64,000 nt of DNA from Cucumis sativus (Eukaryota; Streptophyta; Magnoliopsida; Cucurbitales; Cucurbitaceae): the NCBI RefSeq assembly GCF_000004075.3, contig NC_026656.2, forward strand, positions 23,508,607 to 23,572,606. The letters run 5' to 3'. This document shows, in pieces, positions 5,951-61,868 of the stretch; position 1 is the stretch's first letter, and every line of letters starts with the position of its first letter. Both the position numbers and the translations under genes were made by a program. The notes below the pieces were generated by a model that ran no database searches, was not told the origin of the DNA, and saw only the letters and a list, made by a program, of their open reading frames with translations.

Positions 5951-7298
5951 ATGAGAATGCAGAGGCTTACTTTTTTGGTGTTGGCCACTATAGTTGGTCT
6001 TCTAAGCCTGATAGGCTCCACTCAAGCTCAGTTAAAGCTTGGTTTCTATGCCAAAAGCTGCCCACACGCTGAGAAGATTGTGCTAGATTTCGTTCACCAG
6101 CATATCCACAATGCCCCTTCATTGGCAGCAACTTTCATTAGAATGCACTTCCACGATTGCTTTGTCAGGGTATTGTTTCTTTTCGTTTCCATCTTCATGA
6201 AAATCCTTAATCCTTACAACTCCTATATGCAACTGACATTTACTTCTCTCTGTTTGATGTGTTGCTGAACAGGGTTGTGATGCATCTGTGCTTATAAACT
6301 CCACCTCAAACAACCAAGCTGAGAGGGATTCTGCACCAAATCAAACACTCAGAGGCTTTGACTTCATTGATAGAGTCAAAAGCTTACTTGAAGATGAATG
6401 CCCTGGAGTGGTCTCTTGCGCAGATGTTCTTTCCTTGATTGCAAGAGATACCATTGTAGCCACAGTAAGAATCCACCCAGCCGACCAAATGCCCTTTTAA
6501 CTTTTCCAGTGTTCGATGCTGTTTGTACTCTCTTTTCTTATCGAAAAATGAAAAAGACAAGCAACACACTTTCTCTATTTGATGGTTGTATTCATTTCAA
6601 TATGCAGGGAGGTCCTTACTGGGAAGTTCCAACTGGCCGAAGAGATGGAGTGATCTCAAGATCAAGAGAAGCTTTAAATAACATTCCTCCTCCATTTGGA
6701 AACTTGTCCACGCTCCAAAGACTTTTCTCAAACCAAGGCCTTGATCTAAAAGACTTGGTGTTACTATCTGGTAAGTTCCATATAATTTAAAAAGTAACCA
6801 AAAAAAAAAGAAAAAGTAACCCCATTAACACTAATTCTTCACTCAGTACTTTTCTGAAACACGTTGCATCCAATCATGATTTCAGGCGCTCACACAATCG
6901 GCATAGCACACTGCCAATCATTCAGCAATCGACTCTACAATTTCACCGGGGTAGGAGACCAAGATCCCTCTCTAGACCCAAGATACGCTGCTAATCTGAA
7001 GGCTAACAAATGCCGAACTCCCACCGCCAACAACAAAGTGGAAATGGACCCAGGAAGTCGTAACACTTTTGACCTTAGCTACTATTCTCTTCTACTAAAA
7101 AGGAGGGGCCTCTTCGAATCCGATGCTGCTCTTACAACAGACGCAACTACATTGGGTTTAGTTCAGAAACTGGTAGAAGGACCCATTGAAGAATTCTTCG
7201 CTGAATTTGCAGCATCCATGGAGAAAATGGGTCGGATTAAAGTGAAAACTGGAACTGAAGGTGAAATCAGAAGGAGATGCGGTGTGGTGAATAGTTGA
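5951..7298 (+). CDS. PER30-like: Class III secretory peroxidase (peroxidase 30-like)
   Basis: Haem peroxidase that uses H2O2 to oxidise phenolics in the cell wall. Four exons: 5951-6169, 6273-6464, 6608-6770, 6886-7298; 987 nt, 328 aa, all GT-AG. The three intron positions are the classic ones of plant class III peroxidases. Residues 1-26 are a signal peptide ending ..STQA before QLKLGFY. The distal haem pocket is RMHFHDCF (Arg64, His68). The proximal ligand is in LSGAHTIG (His194), split by intron 3. The RGCDASVL calcium-site segment, the VSCAD motif and the structural cysteines are present. Nothing is broken, and length is typical (320-330). From memory of the family, the closest match is Arabidopsis PRX30 (At3g21770), which also fits the syntenic block. 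An ATG six bases downstream is an alternative start. Expression pattern cannot be read from the sequence. Confidence 0.95.
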
Positions 7299-13627: not shown

Positions 13628-14630
13628 AAATTGGAGATTATGGTCTTCTTGGCTGCAACATATTGAAGAATATGGTCCTCTTGACTTAACCCTCTCAGCT
13701 GAAACATATTAGAGAGGAGGCAAAGTTCGTTGAACCGACATTTTTTAAAGAAGACAGAGTTACACCTACACCAATGAAGCTTAAACCCTTCAAACTTGAT
13801 CTTGAAGAAGCAACAATTAAGTTTTTGGGTTTAAGAAAGACGAAGCCTATGAACTTGAATATGAGAAAGCATCGATAAAGCCTACAGGTCTGAATTTGAA
13901 GAACCTTTTTTTCAAATTTAAATTTGATGAAGCATCGACGAAACCATCAAACTTGATTTTGAAGAACTTTTTTTGTATGCATTTAACTTGAATATAGTGT
14001 ACATCTTCAATTTATTATATCACCTTCTTATTAGGGATGAACAACTTGAATTTAGAACGAGATAATATCCTGCGATAAGACATATAAAACAAGATACAAC
14101 AGGGATAAAGTTCTTTTGTAACAGGTGATATATAAGTTAATCAAATTCCCTACTTTTTTCTATGTTTTCTTACATTTCTATGTGGTAAGGCTTCATTATT
14201 TTACATAAAAAGCCATAATAGCTTGTATTTCTACCAGTTATCAGAGTACGCATGAGACCACCTCAAAAAACCAATTGATTCTAACTCTTGACGTATACAT
14301 TATACCAGGTGCACCAGATTTCAATAGACGCATCTCATGTTCAAAATCTACTAGATTATAAGCTTTGTTGCATGTATAAAATACGTTATCAATTATTCTC
14401 TTATACTTTAATTTTAGGTTGTATGAAATGGAATAAAGTGAATTTGTAGAAATTATTAATTATAATATTATCACAATAGATTCACCTTAATATCATATTA
14501 AAAGTAAATCTATAGTAAATGATATCTTAATAATAAATACAAATATAATTATGGATTGCTTATTACGATAATTATGAAAGTTATAAAATAGACAATGAGA
14601 TAGTTGCAAATTTAGCAATTAAATTCAAAA
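13628..14630. other. Intergenic, nothing recognised
   Basis: Contains a short repeated theme near 13740-13980 (gaagcatcgac, aacttgattttgaagaa) that could be the edge of the preceding array or element. No gene or RNA is seen. Confidence 0.4.
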
Positions 14631-14631
14631 T

Positions 14632-14840
14632 AATTAAGTATACAACAACATTTTAAAAATGTGCAAATATAGCAAAATTTGTCAAATTCTATGGATGATA
14701 TAAATCTATCACCGATAGACCATGTTGTAAATATTGGTCTATCGCAGATAAATCATATGATATTTATCAACGATACAAGTCTATCAGTGATAGTTTTGCT
14801 ATATTTGTAAATTTTTTAAAATATTGTTATATTCTTAATT
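14632..14840. mobile_element. MITE with about 45 bp terminal inverted repeats
   Basis: The left end (14632-14676) and the reverse complement of the right end (14794-14840) align along their whole length: AATTAAG.ATA.AACAA.ATTTTAAAAA and then CAAATATAGCAAAA. The core holds several TCTATC/GATAGA motifs (CTATCACCGATAGA, CTATCAGTGATAG), themselves small palindromes. Total length is about 209 bp with no coding capacity, as expected of a MITE. Related pieces lie at 22733-22757, 37565-37730, 38040-38165 and 52660-52930. Confidence 0.75.
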
Positions 14841-14955
14841 ATTATTCTTAAAATGATTATGATTCCAACTATCCTTTTTTTTAAATCTTTCAACAAAATT
14901 TCTCTAGTTTTTTCTATTTAGATAATAGAAGCTTTAGGCTGTGGACCTCTCAAAA

Positions 14956-15093
14956 TGGGCTATACATGTTAATAGTAGACGTAGTCGTAATGTTAAGGCC
15001 AAGCCCAGTAGCCGCTCCAATGAAACCTACAAAAACCCTAACCAATTTAGAGCGAGAAACCCTAATCTCTCAGTCGATGGATGGCCTATAAAT
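14956..15093 (+). promoter_or_regulatory. snoRNA-cluster promoter: site II, telo-boxes, TATA box
   Basis: Two site II motifs (TGGGCT at 14956-14961; AGCCCA at 15002-15007) precede two telo-boxes (AAACCCTAA at 15033-15041 and 15057-15065). A TATA box (TATAAAT, 15087-15093) follows. This combination is known from plant genes for ribosome biogenesis, including snoRNA and ribosomal-protein genes. The start of transcription is expected near 15118. The 96-codon open frame that overlaps it (14941-15231) has no protein signature and starts upstream of the TATA box, so I do not call it. Confidence 0.8.
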
Positions 15094-15252
15094 TCACCGT
15101 TCCACCTTATTCAGAATATCATCGTCGTCTCCTTCTTCTTTTCGATTTTCTATCTCTGGAATCGAATGTTGCACACTTTCTTATTTTCCTTGTTTATCTT
15201 CATCTTCAATTCTCATCTGTTTTCTTCATAATCTTTTTTTGTTCTTTCTGAT

Positions 15253-15343
15253 GTGCTGTGACGAGGCAATTTTTGTGGACTAGAGTTTCTGATCCGGGTA
15301 CAATTCCTGGGATCTGATTATATACCCTTGGCTGTCTGAGCAC
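15253..15343 (+). ncRNA. Box C/D snoRNA 1, predicted double guide to 25S rRNA
   Basis: Terminal stem GTGC/GCAC (15253-15256 with 15340-15343). C box GTGACGA at 15258-15264, a one-base variant of RUGAUGA. D' box CTGA at 15289-15292; D box CTGA at 15336-15339. Directly upstream of D, CCCTTGGCTGT (15325-15335) is perfectly complementary to ACAGCCAAGGG of 25S rRNA as I remember that conserved segment. Upstream of D', GGACTAGAGT pairs with ACTCTAGTCC of 25S rRNA, about 55 nt further along the same region. Boxes, stem and guides together make this convincing. The exact methylated nucleotide follows the box D plus five rule and should be numbered against the species' own rRNA. Confidence 0.88.
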
Positions 15344-15405
15344 TCTTTTTTTCTACAGTTTGTTTTAATTTAACTTTATTTTTGGATTGTGTACTAGATT
15401 CTATG

Positions 15406-15490
15406 GGCTTATGATGATATTTCAAATAATCTTAGCGGATTTCAGTGAGATTATTCTATCAATGATCTGATTGTTACACACACTGAAGCC
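15406..15490 (+). ncRNA. Box C/D snoRNA 2, double guide to neighbouring 25S sites
   Basis: Terminal stem GGCT/AGCC (15406-15409 with 15487-15490), C box ATGATGA (15411-15417), D box CTGA (15483-15486). The guide before D, TTGTTACACAC (15471-15481), is complementary to GTGTGTAACAA of 25S rRNA. The internal guide CTTAGCGGATTTC (15431-15443) is complementary to GAAATCCGCTAAG, 13 nt without mismatch. In rRNA these two targets are almost adjacent. The D' box is not canonical (CAGT at about 15443-15446), and an AATGATC-like C' box lies near 15461. A nearer CTGA at 15467-15470 is a possible alternative D box, but it lacks a terminal stem and an rRNA match. Confidence 0.88.
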
Positions 15491-15584
15491 TATTTTAGCC
15501 TAGTATATTAGACTTGTTGTAATGTAGTTTAGTTTAGTAGTTAGCGATTCAATACGTTTTCCCCTATTTAATTTTGGTGGAGAT

Positions 15585-15697
15585 GAAGCTATGATGAGAT
15601 TAAACACTTTGATGTGTTATGGGCAGTGGACGTAACTTTTAATTAAGTTATGCCGTGAGCCTATTATATTAAACGACTTCTCCTTCCACTGAGCTTC
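15585..15697 (+). ncRNA. Box C/D snoRNA 3, guide to the 3' end of 18S rRNA
   Basis: Terminal stem GAAGC/GCTTC (15585-15589 with 15693-15697). C box ATGATGA (15591-15597), D box CTGA (15689-15692). CGACTTCTCCTTCC (15674-15687), one base before D, is a 14 nt perfect complement of GGAAGGAGAAGTCG near the 3' end of plant 18S rRNA. The interior is long for this class (113 nt in total) and can fold an internal hairpin (GTAACTT with AAGTTAT around 15630-15650). No convincing D' guide is seen. Confidence 0.87.
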
Positions 15698-15749
15698 TTT
15701 TTTCAGGTACAGCTTCATTTTTGTTGTTGAGTAATTATTCTTGGTTTAG

Positions 15750-15888
15750 CAGATTGCGTCCATTACCAATTCTGGGGGATTTATAGTTCCTCTTGGCATA
15801 ATGGCTCGGACGCAATAGCATTAATGTGGCCATCCTGATTGATGGTTAGCCTCAATCCCATTTAATCCTGGAAACACCACAAACATTT
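15750..15888 (+). ncRNA. Box H/ACA snoRNA
   Basis: Two-hairpin layout. The first hairpin is closed by TTGCGTCC (15754-15761) and GGACGCAA (15808-15815), eight perfect pairs. A hinge ATAGCA (15815-15820) fits the H box ANANNA. The second hairpin is closed by TGTGG (15825-15829) and CCACA (15877-15881). An ACA (15883-15885) then stands exactly three nucleotides before the predicted 3' end. About 139 nt, normal for plant H/ACA RNAs. The pseudouridylation targets were not worked out; pockets beside the inner CCAA/TTGG pairing of hairpin 1 are the place to look. Confidence 0.8.
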
Positions 15889-16073
15889 TTTCTGAAGCAA
15901 CGTTCTTTCTTACCCCTTTCTATACTTATTTTTTCAAATTTTCTTCTCATTTGGTTAGTTGGTTTCGTGAACGGAATTTGATTCTAGTTAGGAATTGATT
16001 TTTGGTATTACCTGTACTTCATCTTTTGTAGCTGTGTTCATTTGTGGTTAGTGTTTTGGACATGAAATATGTA

Positions 16074-16159
16074 TCTGAGCAAGTGATGATTTATATTCAA
16101 CGAATCTGATCAATTTGTGAAGTCTACTAAATTCGAGCTTTTTAAAACTGATGCTCAGA
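16074..16159 (+). ncRNA. Box C/D snoRNA 4, guide to 18S rRNA
   Basis: The strongest terminal stem of the set: TCTGAGCA (16074-16081) with TGCTCAGA (16152-16159), eight pairs. C box GTGATGA (16083-16089), D' box CTGA (16106-16109), D box CTGA (16148-16151). CGAGCTTTTTAA (16134-16145) before D is a perfect 12 nt complement of TTAAAAAGCTCG in 18S rRNA. The segment before D' (ATATTCAACGAAT) has no target that I recognise and may guide another RNA. The gap to snoRNA 3 holds the H/ACA RNA, and all share one strand. Confidence 0.88.
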
Positions 16160-18105
16160 TGATTTCTGTTCCATGGAGGATAATTAAGTCGCTAATAAAG
16201 GCAAGCTAACGATATGAATCGGGAACATGTGTGCTTGTTTGAAGGTAAAGTGATACTCTTGTTGCCTACATGATCCAAATGGCATTGTTATTTAAAAAGT
16301 CTTGGTGGAAGTTGTTGAAGTGGGCAAGCAATTTCAGAAGCCAAATTTTGGAATGCAAACACGTATGGACAATGTTGGGAACGAAGAATTATGCATCTGG
16401 TTTGAAGTTATTTTGAGGAAATCTACCACAATTTTGAGTATATCCGAGACCTTTGAAACGTGTAACATTTGTTGTTTTAAACCACCAATTTGGTATGGAA
16501 TGAGTTGTGTTTTTTATTTTATAAAAATAATTATGCAAGATTTCTCGAACTATTCTTTTAGAATGGTGTAGATTACAATTACGTTCATAAAATCTTAATT
16601 TTATCAATCTGTCTCTCCAGTCGAACTCTTTATTCTACCCTCTTCCTTGATTGATTACTAAATTTGAATGGGAGAAGGGCAAAGTTGTGATAAGAATTTT
16701 TTTTCTACTCTAACCACTTCCTTCTTAATATCTCTATTTTGTTGTTGTGGTTCTGTTTTGATTCATCAATGCGATGATGAAATAGATATCCACATTGACT
16801 AAGGACTACTTGAAAAGGAATTTACAATACAGATTTTTTACAGAATTTTTTTTGATTCATCAATGCGATGATAATAACAATAATTTGTAATGGAAAATTA
16901 TTAGTTTGTTTTTTGAAATTTAATTTGTAATTGAATTAATTTTTGTGTTTTTTTATCTAAACAATGTGCATGCTTTGAATTTATTGATTACGTCACCTAA
17001 AAACCAAAATTGACATTGTTTTTATGAAAAAAAATTCTTCCAAAATTTAATTAATAATGTTAAGTAGTGTTATGATAAGGTGTGTTTGGGATAATGATTA
17101 TTTTGGTAGTATTATGATAAAATGTATTTGGGGGAAGGGTTCTTTTGGGTTTTGTTGTGAAGGTTTTTTTTGGATCATTATTATTATCACTATCATCAAA
17201 TTCATATTTAAAATTCAATATTGCATAATTATTTTGTATGGGTAAATTAGTTTAATGAAGTTACATTTAGTGGTTACTATTCTGCGGTTTGGTCATATTC
17301 ATAATGTTATCAGGATAAAGTATCTAATCTTATCATGACTCTTTAAATTGGTCTCAAACATTGATATCTCTATGTCTCTATTTAGGTTATTAATATAAAA
17401 CTAATAATATAATCAATACAATAATAACATTTTATTAAGAACAGTTGATGAACTATATTTACGATCTATGAGTTATAGAAAGTCTATAGCAAATGTATTT
17501 GTTCAAAATACAATGTACTAAGTGTAGTATCTCTTTCAACGCAGGAGTAGGGTGTCTTGAAAATAAATTAAGGAAGTGAGTGTGTGGGCAAAGACAAAAT
17601 TACTTAAAAGACTACCAAAACAATGTAATCATTATGTACCATCTAGTTTTGAGAATAAACCAATGTTGAAATGGAAAACAACACTCATTAAAAATGTCAA
17701 AATGTTATTTAAAAATATATTGTGCCTTAGATTTAGTTGTGACAGTAAAAAGGTATGCATGAAAAGGAAGTACATTGTATAGAGATGGAAATGCATACAA
17801 AGAGACATATCAAACGAACATACAAAGAAACATATCAAATGAACATATGTATGGTAATGAAGATTTTGTTATACTGCAGAAAGATTTTGTTATACTAAAA
17901 CAACATTATGTCTTTACAACATAGTACAGTCTTTGTTTGGATTGATTTATTTGATACGAGTTCGACAGCTTAAAAAGTTCTCGTGATACATGTCTTATTC
18001 TATCCTACGACGATTGTGGTAAAATGGAGTAGAGAGCTATTTATTCCTTTGAAAAGCACAATATTTTTAAATTAAATTTCAAATAAGTTTTAAAAGAAGG
18101 ATGAG
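16160..18105. other. Downstream of the snoRNA cluster; nothing firm
   Basis: A weak H/ACA-like pairing occurs at about 16199-16272 (GGCAA with TTGCC, followed by TACATGA), but it lacks a proper H box. It is not called. The remainder is AT-rich with short open frames (16302-16571, 17057-17245, 17576-17782) that show no motif. Confidence 0.45.
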
Positions 18106-49751: not shown

Positions 49752-50550
49752 CTAAGGTGGTGAAGAAGAAACAAGAAGAGTGTCGTCGACTGAAATTTCG
49801 GAGACGTCGTCCAAAGTGTTAGTAGGCATAATCAAGGGTCTTTCCACTCTTTGCATCTCCCCATTGCCATTCAACAACATCTCTTTCTCCAAATGCCAGC
49901 AATAAGTTTCAAAAACCCTTGAACTAACCGTCACTCCAAAATCCAACAAAAAAAGCATCTCTAATTCCAGCTTATTCAACTCTCCTTTGCTCACCCCGCC
50001 CACTCGGGCATAAAACGCGTTGTTATAGTGCCTGTCAATCATTAATTTTTTTTAAAAATGTCATTCCAAATAGGACTCTTAAAAAAAGCAAAATGAATTA
50101 GATGCAAGGTGTAATTAAAGACTCTCACACGTCGTCAAGCATCTTAGACGCAACCATTACACTTGTGACGAGAAGGCGATGAACATTCAAGGAGATGACA
50201 AGGGAGTCGGGGTGTCGATGGATCAACCTATCGATGTAAACGAATCCAACCACAAGACAAGAAGGGCTACAATTGGTGTATTTGTAAATTCTCTCCAAGT
50301 ACTTCAATATAGAGATGGTTGGAGCTCGGACTCCATGGAAAGCATTGAAGCTGTTTCCTAAATGGTTAGAGGAAGAGCTGCAGCAACCCAACTCTTCCAG
50401 CTGTTGGCTTAGCTCATTTAAGAGGCGGTCGTTACGAGCCACCAGCCGGTCAAGGACGAAGGCTAATATGATGAGTACTCTGGGGGTTGGCTCGGCAGCA
50501 TTATCACCCTCGACTCGCCCCGGAGCTGCAAAGTCGCTGCCTGTTAACAT
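49752..50550 (-). CDS. CYCP2;1-like: U/P-type cyclin (CYCU2-1 / CYCP2;1-like)
   Basis: Two exons: 50550-50129 and 50031-49752; 702 nt, 233 aa. P/U-type cyclins are small plant cyclins related to yeast PHO80; they bind A-type CDKs and link nutrient or sugar signals to cell division. The protein opens MLTGSDFAAPGRVEG. The cyclin box spans about 75-185: VRAPTISILKYLERIYKYT, CLVVGFVYIDRLI, LNVHRLLVTSVMVASKMLDD, YNNAFYARVGGVSKGELNKL, ELEMLFLLDF. The intron falls after DD in the box, the usual site in this group (donor GT|GTGAGA). The open frame extends 64 codons further upstream (to 50742). I choose Met at 50550 because family members begin near there and the extension is dissimilar, probably 5' UTR. 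The acidic C-terminal tail is variable. Confidence 0.92.
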
Positions 50551-50742
50551 TGTTGGATAAAAGTGAGTGTAGTGTGGGTGTGAGAAAGGAAATGAGAGCT
50601 TAATTGATGGGGTATTGAAATTGTAGATAAAATGAGATGGATTTTCTTTGGACGTCAAGCATTGATGGATTTGGTGGTTGTGACTTTCTAAATTGTTTGT
50701 AAAATTGAAATTTTCCATCTCATCCAATCTGTTCAGTACCAT

Positions 50743-55830: not shown

Positions 55831-58520
55831 ATTTTGGTTCACAAAACAAAATTTTATTTAAAACAAAAGTCTGTTGGTGGTGGTGCCCTAATATTGAAAT
55901 TTTAGTAAATATGAAGGCTTCGACGAGAGTAAATATTTCTTTCCTCTTTTGATATGTATTTTTTTTATAGTATGCTTAACCATAAAAAGTTTGTTGTCTC
56001 CTACACAACCTTATAAATAGACAAATTAATAGACAAATTATTATAACACATATTATGATAGTGTGGAATCCAAACACAGACTATTATAATCTCCAGATTA
56101 TTATAGTATTTAGACTATTATGATTGACATAATATTATAAATTACTCATTGTCTCAAAAGGTTAAAAAGTGTCTAACCTTTATTACTTAATCATATGATA
56201 TCTAGATGTTCATCTCATTCACTATATTTACTTAGTTTTGTTTGGTTTTGTGTTTTTTTAAAAGTAGTACAAATATATTTTTTTCTCTTTTTTTCTTTAA
56301 AATAAAGATTATAACCTACTCTAACCAACCTTAATTACTTGATTATCAAAATGTGTGTTAGCACATGAATAACCCCATTAGATTCCTCCATTTTTATGTA
56401 CACCAAAAAAAATTCAATTATATATGGAGTATATTCAATTTCTAGCTATTTCACTGTACACCAAAAAAAAATGATAACTAAAATTCAATTACATAATTTT
56501 GTTAATAGAATAAACAATATTTTATTTTAAATAATATTTTATATATTGCATTGTGATTAACAAAAGTGTTAAAAATTAAAATCCATTATATAAATTTGGC
56601 TTGGAAAACCACAATATAAAGGGGCACAATAAAAAAGAAGAGAAAGCAAAAGTTCCACGTGTACAACATGATATTGAGTCCCAAAGTCATCTTTCCTAAA
56701 AATTGCATACATATATTGGCTGATGTGTCAGTCAAATTGTGGCCCATCCTTTATCCAATACCTCCACATCATCATCTATATCAATATTCAGGTCCAAACA
56801 CAGCCATCTGTCAAAGTCAAGCAAGGTTAACAGTGACTCCCAAATGTTGATTAAATAACCAAAAGTTTCCTAAAGCAAAAACTTTTCTTCATCAACACCA
56901 AACACAACCCATCTGTTTCCTTCTAATGTCTTCCCATTCAGATTTTGGCTTTAATCCTGTTCTTTCAGTTTAGATTTTGGATGAAGTTCGGAATCTCATT
57001 GGAAAGGTAAATTTTATAAAGAACATATTCCATTTGTTTTATGGGTATTTAAAAACTGCATTTTTTGTTTTTATGGATAGAAAGTAGTTTATTTTTTCTC
57101 TTCTTGTTAAGGAAACTTTCTGGCTTCTTAGAATGATCACAATTTTTAAAATTATTATTAATATTACAAAATTTAAGCATATGTCCACTGTAGTAATTAT
57201 AAATTTGGTTTAATGCCATTTTGAAATTCTATCTTAATCAATTTTTTTTCCTTTCTTAAAATTTTAAATTCTTTATTTAATATTTAAAATTCAAATACTT
57301 TTTGTTGAATTTTTTTTGTTATTTGTAGCTACTTTAAAATGAATCAGTGTTTACTTTCAATTTAAATTATTTTTTAAATTTCATATTTCATTTACTATCT
57401 TGTGATGATGTATTTACAAATTTTTACTACTGGTACGTCGAATTTTATTTAAATAACGAGGTGTATTTTATGTTTATAGAACATGTTCGGCTTAGAAAAA
57501 TTATATATTTTTTTGTTTATAAAATAAAGTTTAGTAGTATTATCAATTTTTAAAAAAGAACTATTAACCACAAACTTAAAATTTGAAGGATTTAGAATAT
57601 AAAATAAAAGATTTTGAAGAGTTGTTAAACAACATTTTTTAAGAATTAAAAGATTAATTAGACAAGAAAGAAATGAAAAGAAAAGAAAAGAAAACTTGAA
57701 GAGTTGTGAGCTAAAAATTAAAGTAGCAAACCTGTTAAACAATCGCCTAGAATTAAAAAAAGTTTTTAAAATATGATATACCACGCTATCGAGTTGATTT
57801 TCGTATACTATTTTTAATGAGTGGTTGCCGATTTATTTTCTACTTAATAAATAATTTTTATTTAATCTATTCTATTGGTGTAAAGTAAGAAAATTTGATA
57901 TAGTTATAGATTTGGTGGAGGTAAAGTCTCCAATAGTTATAAAACTCTTATGTGTGCATCTTTATTGAAAATTTCAATAGATTAATTTAATTAACTAATT
58001 TTGTGTAACTAAAAAACTTGTAGTTATACGAGAAATATGAAGGAGTAAAAATAGATATTTGTGGAATAGAAAGCGAAAAATGGGTGGCCACGTCAGCATC
58101 CATGAGTCAAAAAGCTCGAGTAAAACATTACATCAACAAATTTGCATATTTTGTATATGTTTAAATAGGATTAAATTGCAAAAACCATCCCCATTTTCAA
58201 GGTGGAAAGTTTAATGGTATAATTACCATTACCACCATAGTTTAAAATTGATTTTTTTGGGGTAACTTATCATAAATTCTTTAGAAAAATACATGAAAGT
58301 TGATTTGATTTTGTTTAGGGTTATAGTTTAAATGGTGAAGGTTTAGGACGTTTTCTGTTGGAGGATTACAACGAAAAAGCCGAATTCCCGCCACGAGGTT
58401 AAATTCGGAAATTTAAAAATTAAAATAATAATAATGATAATAACTTTAAAAAAAGAAAAAAAGAAAAAAAGAAAATGTTGTTTTTGGTTAATTTGGATTG
58501 AAACGGACGAAGAGTTTATT
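55831..58520. other. Upstream of the COL12-like gene; no gene
   Basis: AT-rich. An ACGT-core element CCACGTGT (56655-56662, containing the G-box CACGTG) lies about 1.9 kb upstream of the COL ATG, and CCACGTCAGC (58088-58097) lies about 430 bp upstream. ACGT cores are bound by bZIP or bHLH factors in light-regulated genes; use here is inference. Confidence 0.4.
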
Positions 58521-60157
58521 ATGGAACCTCTATGCGAGTTCTGTGGAGTGGTGAGAGCGGTTGTTTATTGTAAATCGGATTCAGCCCGATTGTGTTTACA
58601 GTGCGATGGCCGCGTTCACTCCGCTAATTCGTTATCTCGACGCCATCTTCGCTCTTTACTTTGTGATAACTGTAATGCTCAACCAGCCATTGTTCGTTGT
58701 ATGGATGATAAACTCTCTCTCTGTCAATCCTGTGATTGGAACAACAACCCAACTCCCACCCCAACCCCAATGCCCTCCTCCTTCTCACATTCTTCATTCT
58801 TACTCCGGTTGTCCTTCCATGCCTGATTTCTTCCGTTTCTGGTCTTCTGATCCCTCCTCCCTTCCTCCTCCCCATTCCTGGTTCCCCCCTCCTCCTCCCC
58901 CTCATTTCCCTTTCTCAACCACCCCTTTTCATCTTTCCGATCCTCACTCCAAGGTATCTTCTTCCGATCTCCTCCTCATTTCATTAATTAATTCCCTTCA
59001 AATCTCATCTCGGTTTCCTTTTTTTCCCCCATTTATAGGGTTGTTCTGATTTTAAAGATGTTACTACCACCACTACTGCTGCTGATGCTACTCATGATCA
59101 TGATGATTTATGTGAAGCTTTGAATCTTGATGATGTTTCACTTCATTTGGATAACAATGAGGATGAGTTGTTTGGCTGTCCTCAAGGTACTACTATCAAA
59201 TGTCAATTTGAGGATGGAGAATTGGATTCTCTTTTAATGGAGAAGAATTTCTTTGAGGTTACTGATTCTAATGCTCCTCCTCCTCCTCCTCTTGACAATA
59301 CCATTGAGGTATATAATAATGTGATTGCATTTTTTTTTTTTCTTTCTCTCTTTTTTTCAAGACATTGAGGTACATGAAATGACCTTTTTTTCTTTTTAAA
59401 TTTTAATTTAGGATATATCATCTGTACAACAGGATTTTATCGGATTTCAATCGTCTCAAGAGGGGGTTTCCATTAACATGATTCAAAATGGCAATTCCAA
59501 TTGTATGCTTATGAATCCTAGTTGTAATGGAAATATCAACATTGGATTTCCTCCTACTGCTCAGGTTCATTCTAGCATTTCGCTCTCTCTCTCGAATATG
59601 ACTGGCGAAAGTAGTGTTGCTGATTATCAAGACTGTGGGTTATCGCCGGCGTTTTTGACAGAAGCTTCGTGGGATCCTAGTATGGAAGGTATTGGTCCAC
59701 AAGCAAAGGATCGGAATAGGGATAAAGCCAAGATGAGATACAATGAAAAGAAGAAAACAAGAACGTTGGTATCATTTTTTTGCACGAATATCTCATTCTC
59801 CTCTAACTGTCATCATTTACATTCATCTATTTAGGTAACATGTTTACTAAGATAGAATAACTTCGTTCATCTTAGTGATTTTTTACTTGGAGATACAAAG
59901 ATTTTGATTTTGCTATGTCATTATCTGGCCTTTTATTGTTGACAACTGAAAACTAATATGACCAATCTTGAGAAGAGAGGAGGCTATTTGATCATTTCAA
60001 TTATGATATTTGCACTTTCTTTGTATTCAGATTTGGGAAGCAAATAAGATATGCATCTCGCAAAGCCAGAGCTGATACTAGAAAAAGAGTTAAGGGTCGA
60101 TTTGTGAAAGCAGGCGAAGCCTATGACTATGATCCTCTTGTGACGAGAAACTTTTGA
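58521..60157 (+). pseudogene. COL12-like: CONSTANS-LIKE 11/12 B-box/CCT gene with an exon 1 frameshift
   Basis: COL proteins of this group are nuclear regulators of flowering and light response. Four exons: 58521-58953, 59039-59308, 59412-59764, 60031-60157. B-box 1 is complete (Cys5, Cys8, Cys17, Asp20, Cys25, Cys28, His33, His42). B-box 2 (Cys48-Cys71) stops after CDWN, as usual for the group. Exon 1 is 433 nt, one base over a multiple of three. The B-box frame runs into a stop at 58824-58826 (101 aa product), while [13 protein letters not shown] and all later exons are in another frame. The shift lies in a C-rich stretch at about 58742-58775; no GT-AG intron can bridge it. The CCT domain ([32 protein letters not shown]) is intact across intron 3. 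With one base removed the gene would encode 393 aa, the family length. An assembly error or a true lesion are both possible. Confidence 0.85.
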
Positions 60158-61392: not shown

Positions 61393-61812
61393 TTACAAAA
61401 AGAGAAAGGGCCTTTTGAACATTACTGAGCAGCATGGGTTACGATTGCCATTGTTGTTACAGTCGTTAGCTTCGGCGCAAGCGATGATGGTAGGGAGAAG
61501 AACCTCAGTTGAAGTTCCCATGAGGTATTTTTGTGTAAGGTTTTGGCAAACATTACAGAGAATGCACCTAATATGCCTGAGGGCTAAGAAATTTGCACCA
61601 TGAACCCATTTGTCACATTTCCTACATAAATACGCATCATCTGCTTGGCAATACAATGAAGCTTTCGAGTTGCACAGCTCGCACATCACCACACCAGCTG
61701 CCGACACAACGCCCTTCTGGATCACTGGAGACTGCCGGCAACCATCGCGACCGTGAGCGTGACCGTGGTTTCCCTCCTCCACACCTCTACACATTTTTGC
61801 GTTTTCCTTCAC
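61393..61812 (-). CDS. BBX31-like: Single B-box microProtein, miP1 type (BBX30/31)
   Basis: One exon, 139 aa. miP1a/b (BBX31/BBX30) of Arabidopsis bind CONSTANS through their B-box and recruit TOPLESS, delaying flowering; they also act in light signalling. The only domain is one B-box: Cys44, Cys47, Cys55, Asp58, Cys63, Cys66, His71, His80 (CELCNSKASLYC..DDAYLCRKCDKWVH). The protein ends exactly in PFLFL (135-139), the TOPLESS-binding motif of the miP1 pair. There is no CCT domain, so it cannot bind DNA as CO does. Length is slightly above the Arabidopsis proteins (about 120 aa as I recall). Met7 (61794) is a possible start. It lies convergent to the COL12-like gene, as a neighbour. Confidence 0.93.
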   Translation of the reverse strand: MKENAKMCRGVEEGNHGHAHGRDGCRQSPVIQKGVVSAAGVVMCELCNSKASLYCQADDAYLCRKCDKWVHGANFLALRHIRCILCNVCQNLTQKYLMGTSTEVLLPTIIACAEANDCNNNGNRNPCCSVMFKRPFLFL

Positions 61813-61868
61813 AAAAACTCAAGTCTAAAATGTAAATGTGGCTGCTCCCGATACCTTAAGAGTTGGAG

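Follow-up and report, generated by a model that had tools for sequence, protein, structure and literature searches.

Is the stretch from position 14956 to about position 16160 of this 64 kb piece of Cucumis sativus DNA (contig NC_026656.2) a gene for small nucleolar RNAs (snoRNAs), and if so, of which kind? The whole 64 kb is called the window, and all positions refer to it unless another contig is given. An earlier note on this DNA had described four box C/D snoRNAs and one H/ACA snoRNA behind a site II/telo-box promoter, and this description is supported by Rfam, by the guide complements and by a motif scan. We hold with high confidence that the gene is real. It probably works as a source of polycistronic snoRNAs, as proposed in that note, and it is very probably an intergenic plant snoRNA gene of the RNA polymerase II type with a TeloSII/TATA promoter and five guide RNAs.

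Five guide RNAs on one strand

In the Rfam scan of the window all five predicted snoRNAs exceeded the gathering scores of their families (E-values from 1.8e-18 to 1.5e-4). They lie on the plus strand within the predicted span, which confirms the single-strand arrangement, and they are the only gathering-score matches of the whole window. The first member is the box C/D snoRNA snoZ157/R69/R10 (here R10; 15249..15347, RF00333, 62.5 bits at a cut-off of 55), followed by the box C/D snoRNAs R11 (Rfam snoR11; 15405..15491, RF00349, 89.9 bits) and snoZ152/R70/R12 (here R12; 15585..15697, RF00350, 94 bits), the H/ACA snoRNA snoR80 (15753..15888, RF01224, 112.1 bits) and the box C/D snoRNA SNORD36 (U36; 16077..16157, RF00049, 46.8 bits at a cut-off of 30). 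The spaces between the RNAs measure 55-188 nucleotides (nt).

Box C/D snoRNAs are characterized by a C box (RUGAUGA), a D box (CUGA) and a closing stem. A scan for this combination gave three matches on the plus strand of the window, which are R11, R12 (C box 15591-15597, D box 15689-15692) and U36 (C box 16083-16089, D box 16148-16151), with closing stems of 7, 5 and 9 base pairs (bp), respectively. The two matches on the minus strand are both located outside the cluster region. The boxes of R10 were assigned by eye (C box GTGACGA 15258-15264, D' box CTGA 15289-15292, D box CTGA 15336-15339). Four of the four C/D RNAs are therefore members of their families by Rfam score and three of the four by the box-and-stem scan. 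The earlier statement that boxes and closing stems are correct throughout holds for R11, R12 and U36, and not for R10 with its deviating C box and a stem that appears short by eye, yet the Rfam alignment of R10 lies above the cut-off.

H/ACA snoRNAs are recognized by two hairpins, a hinge with an H box (ANANNA) and an ACA three nt from the 3' end. All of these are present in snoR80, for which the H box ATAGCA (15815-15820) and the ACA (15883-15885) were identified by eye on the plus strand. The 5' hairpin has a 9-bp stem (15753-15761/15808-15816) just before the H box (folding of 15745-15822, -25.8 kcal/mol), and the 3' hairpin folds from 15823-15888, before the ACA. The minimum-energy fold of the span matched by Rfam (15765-15888) does not display both hairpins, separate folds give each of them. 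Because the 9-bp stem closes the 5' hairpin, the start of snoR80 lies about 12 nt before that of the Rfam model. A 10-nt complement of snoR80 to the cucumber's own 18S ribosomal RNA (rRNA) was found, which is not placed in a guide pocket. No paper with the term snoR80 was found among the open-licence literature, and none of the six names looked for is present in PMC8351944.

A sixth RNA in the gaps is not supported by the scans. Rescanning of 14800-16600 with E-values up to 1 yielded 11 rows, namely the five snoRNAs and six weaker ones, all under the gathering score of their family and overlapping R10 (one), R11 (two) or SNORD36 (three). The gaps 15889-16076 and 16158-16600 are without a separate Rfam match, and the box-and-stem scan gave no additional match in the cluster. 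A tRNA-linked cluster was also rejected, as ARAGORN (bacterial settings) identified no tRNA in the window.

Promoter and proposed transcription unit

All five promoter elements listed in the earlier note were recovered by a motif scan, for which the definitions of the site II element (TGGGCY) and of the telo-box were taken from excerpts of PMC4660826. A site II element TGGGCT is located at 14956..14961 on the plus strand and a second one in reverse orientation at 15002..15007 on the minus strand. They are followed on the plus strand by two copies of the telo-box AAACCCTA (15033..15040 and 15057..15064) and by a TATA box TATAAA (15087..15092), so that telo-box and site II element stand upstream of a TATA box, as characteristic for TeloSII promoters. 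The TATA box is weak on its own, because TATAAA is present 147 times in the window. When the window is resampled with a first-order Markov model, one telo-box together with one site II element within 150 bp arises in 44 of 200 cases, two of each in none of 200; it is therefore the double motif pair that matters. Transcription would start about 30 nt downstream of the TATA box, near 15115-15125. Just upstream of the promoter an imperfect inverted repeat is found (14599-14873; complementarity 74% in the arms of 61 nt and 89% in the inner arms of 27 nt), which is perhaps a small element resembling a miniature inverted-repeat transposable element (MITE).

Promoters of the TeloSII type also drive ribosomal-protein genes, as described in the same excerpts of PMC4660826. 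The snoRNAs might thus reside in the introns or the leader of a protein-coding gene with such a promoter that has gone unrecognised, and be freed from spliced introns. Such a host gene is very unlikely. The longest ATG frame overlapping the snoRNA gene comprises 56 amino acids (aa), and the longest stop-to-stop frame, with 97 codons (14938-15231), ends entirely upstream of the first snoRNA. The short spaces between the RNAs moreover leave little room for exons. It is this stop-to-stop frame that the earlier note had called a spurious frame of 96 aa.

For a polycistronic gene the following course is proposed. The promoter (14956-15092) would start one precursor at the predicted site, running past about 16160, which would be cut between the RNAs and then trimmed to the ends protected by small nucleolar ribonucleoproteins. 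By the D+5 rule the four C/D RNAs would direct 2'-O-methylation to 18S and 25S rRNA, and pseudouridylation would be guided by snoR80. Polymerase, start site, single precursor, processing and catalysis are what we infer from the literature.

Guide complements and mapped Arabidopsis sites

Directly upstream of a D or D' box each of the four C/D RNAs exhibits a complement to rRNA of at least 10 nt. The lengths are 11 nt for the D guide of R10, 15 nt for that of R12, 12 nt for that of SNORD36, and for R11 13 Watson-Crick nt at the D' box (14 with one G-U pair) and 11 nt at the D box. Pieces of ribosomal DNA (rDNA) from the cucumber's own genome hold complements of 11-15 nt for four of these five guides. 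The guide of R12 complements the 3' end of 18S in the own-genome copy L008, the two target cores of R11 stand side by side in an own-genome 25S piece (L128), and the guide of SNORD36 complements 18S TTAAAAAGCTCG, with the target core kept in four own-genome 18S pieces (L129-L132). The rRNA complements that the earlier note had claimed for all four C/D RNAs are thereby substantiated for R11, R12 and U36 with the plant's own rDNA, and for R10 only against a provisional 25S sequence from outside this assembly.

How easily such complements arise was estimated with 20000 shuffled guides and a match no more than 3 nt away from the box. On the 4935 nt of rRNA from locus L041 (PKCZ01000144.1), which belongs to a divergent eukaryote and served as control, 100 of the 20000 reached at least 11 nt and 19 at least 12 nt; the corresponding numbers against 2273 nt of own 18S are 61 and 16. 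The control rRNA itself contains the 15-nt complement of R12 and lacks the cores of R10 and U36; for R11 its match is no longer than 9 nt. Among the matches listed, at least four perfect C/D complements of 10-11 nt to L041 or L058 (three of R11, one of U36) lie away from a D or D' box, and the C-box region of R10 matches the provisional 25S over 11 nt, one G-U pair included. Because such matches also occur away from the boxes, a complement of 10-11 nt is weak when taken alone, and the argument is therefore carried by the spacing to the box and by the mapped Arabidopsis sites.

In R11 the D'+5 site and the D+5 site lie 15 nt apart. The D+5 adenine of R12 is located 50 nt before the 3' end of 18S, and with an 18S length which we take to be 1808 nt this site is A1758, the site of SnoR23. 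For SNORD36 the site comes to about 18S A621 in copy L130 (identity of only 96% across 83 queried bases), counted with the plant 18S 5' end. In the excerpted Table 1 of PMC8053127 Arabidopsis SnoR22 is assigned to 25S A1263 and U1278, a spacing equal to that of R11, SnoR23 to 18S A1758, and U36 to 18S A623 and 25S A2221 and G2237; SnoR22 is also counted there among six snoRNAs with two guides to sites 11-18 nt apart. On the basis of these positions Rfam snoR11 would fit SnoR22, snoZ152 SnoR23 and SNORD36 U36. Naming by the Rfam synonyms was ruled out, as R10 and R12 disagree with the targets of Arabidopsis SnoR10 (25S U2651) and SnoR12 (25S A945 and A2127) in the excerpts of PMC8053127, and SnoR11 is absent from the main text of that paper. 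Candidates for the Arabidopsis counterpart of R10 are SnoR28 and SnoR44.

Several points weigh against a polycistronic gene with five intact guides. The C box of R10 is one position off the consensus, and the simple C/D scan, which caught the other three C/D RNAs, did not detect R10. Its D guide (15325-15335) complements 25S ACAGCCAAGGG over its 11 nt, in the provisional 25S only; the D' guide complements ACTCTAGTCC in the same stretch of the provisional 25S by eye and is absent from the scored list, and both target cores are absent from the own-genome rDNA pieces. Sequence patterns for an intact 25S, with up to one mismatch, gave no match in the assembly, and because no complete 25S was found there the R10 target rests on the provisional one. 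The D-guide site of R10 matches no named snoRNA in the excerpted Arabidopsis table of PMC8053127. No box-adjoining complement was found for the D' guides of R12 and SNORD36 in the part of 25S that was searched, the count for SNORD36 is two short of A623, and there may be a separate start before SNORD36, which is preceded by the 188-nt gap.

Copies in the genome and related clusters

Family searches covered 226.6 Mb in 88 contigs. Only the best candidates were scored, so that the locus counts are lower bounds: at least one each for snoZ152, snoR11, SNORD36 and snoR80, and at least three for snoZ157. The second snoZ157 locus (L009, C2:24445000-24448500) continues on the same strand with two U14 (SNORD14) genes instead of the members described here. 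Its upstream region holds a pair of telo-boxes together with a site II motif and a TATA box, and the locus represents, like the present gene, a TeloSII unit beginning with snoZ157, the second TeloSII snoRNA unit of the genome. Its snoZ157-like RNA beside U14 resembles the yeast snR190-U14 pair. The third copy (L010, C2:24455500-24459000) is inverted, about 10 kb from the L009 copy, and has a changed D box and one site II motif, without a telo-box or a further Rfam match in 3.5 kb. It is probably a decayed duplicate.

That copy is a precedent for a decayed cluster, in which some or all of the five RNAs would be unexpressed pseudogenes, and the C box of R10, one of at least three snoZ157 copies, points in the same direction. 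However, the RNAs retain their D boxes, closing stems and guide complements, and the motifs of the promoter are undamaged. The searches gave no other locus for four of the five families, given the lower bounds, and loss of the cluster would therefore be costly. We regard decay as highly improbable. No better can be said of the idea that the unit is mainly an unprocessed snoRNA-containing long noncoding RNA and not a guide source, like Arabidopsis lncCOBRA1 with its two snoRNA domains, its TeloSII promoter and its probes without rRNA enrichment (excerpts of PMC9175010), as the rRNA complements and the D+5 spacing of the cucumber RNAs fit known methylated sites.

The polycistronic guide gene resembles the plant TeloSII genes in the excerpts of PMC4660826, with telo-box, site II element and TATA box upstream of snoRNAs on one strand and no long frame; nothing essential differs, and the cucumber unit has two of each TeloSII motif. 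Rice cluster 20, snoR22a-snoR23-snoR22b, has two SnoR22-like copies in contrast to the one found here, and snoZ157, snoR80 and SNORD36 are additional in cucumber. According to excerpts of PMC5122169, the source for cluster 20 as well, the rice U36 is placed in another cluster, cluster 1, and most rice snoRNA clusters are not conserved. No paper on the five-member gene order was found among the open-licence literature. The combination of C/D and H/ACA genes, which the earlier note had rated as less common, was overstated in its novelty: excerpts of PMC7464842 credit Leader et al. 1997 with plant clusters in which both classes are united.

The state of the rDNA was surveyed as well. L008 (C2:12836500-12845000) holds a shortened 18S (1173 bases) and a 5.8S at gathering score, and for the queried 25S stretches short pieces with 81-98% identity are all that is left. 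Pieces of rDNA, including more 18S and diverged 25S pieces, are distributed over C2, C3, C4 and C5; the assembly may lack intact arrays. Two scans of viral contigs for eukaryotic rDNA gave no match. The scan of other genome contigs revealed at least 111 stretches; five loci with bacterial titles were considered, and of the three among them that were checked with Rfam one was eukaryotic. This is L041, titled Proteobacteria bacterium Gammapro10 (bacterial bin), which carries eukaryotic 18S and large subunit rRNA; the contig is probably a contaminant.

Elsewhere in the window likely protein exons encode a peroxidase (6858-7298, PF00141), a cyclin (50125-50742, PF08613) and two B-box zinc fingers (58347-58826 and 61393-61818), one over the Pfam cut-off and the second, on the opposite strand, just under it. 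Three of seven window frames scanned had no Pfam match.

In its main features the gene is of a known kind, it would hardly surprise a specialist, and knowledge of snoRNA gene organisation is unchanged. Plant snoRNA families mostly comprise several paralogous copies (excerpts of PMC5122169), and it is rather doubtful that the five-member unit is the only genomic source of the snoR11, snoZ152, snoR80 and SNORD36 guides. If it were, one promoter would jointly set several rRNA modifications of both classes on both ribosomal subunits, and the unit would act as one switch for some of the modification of the ribosome. The locus adds, with predicted rRNA targets, a non-coding gene of the sort that protein-driven annotation would skip.
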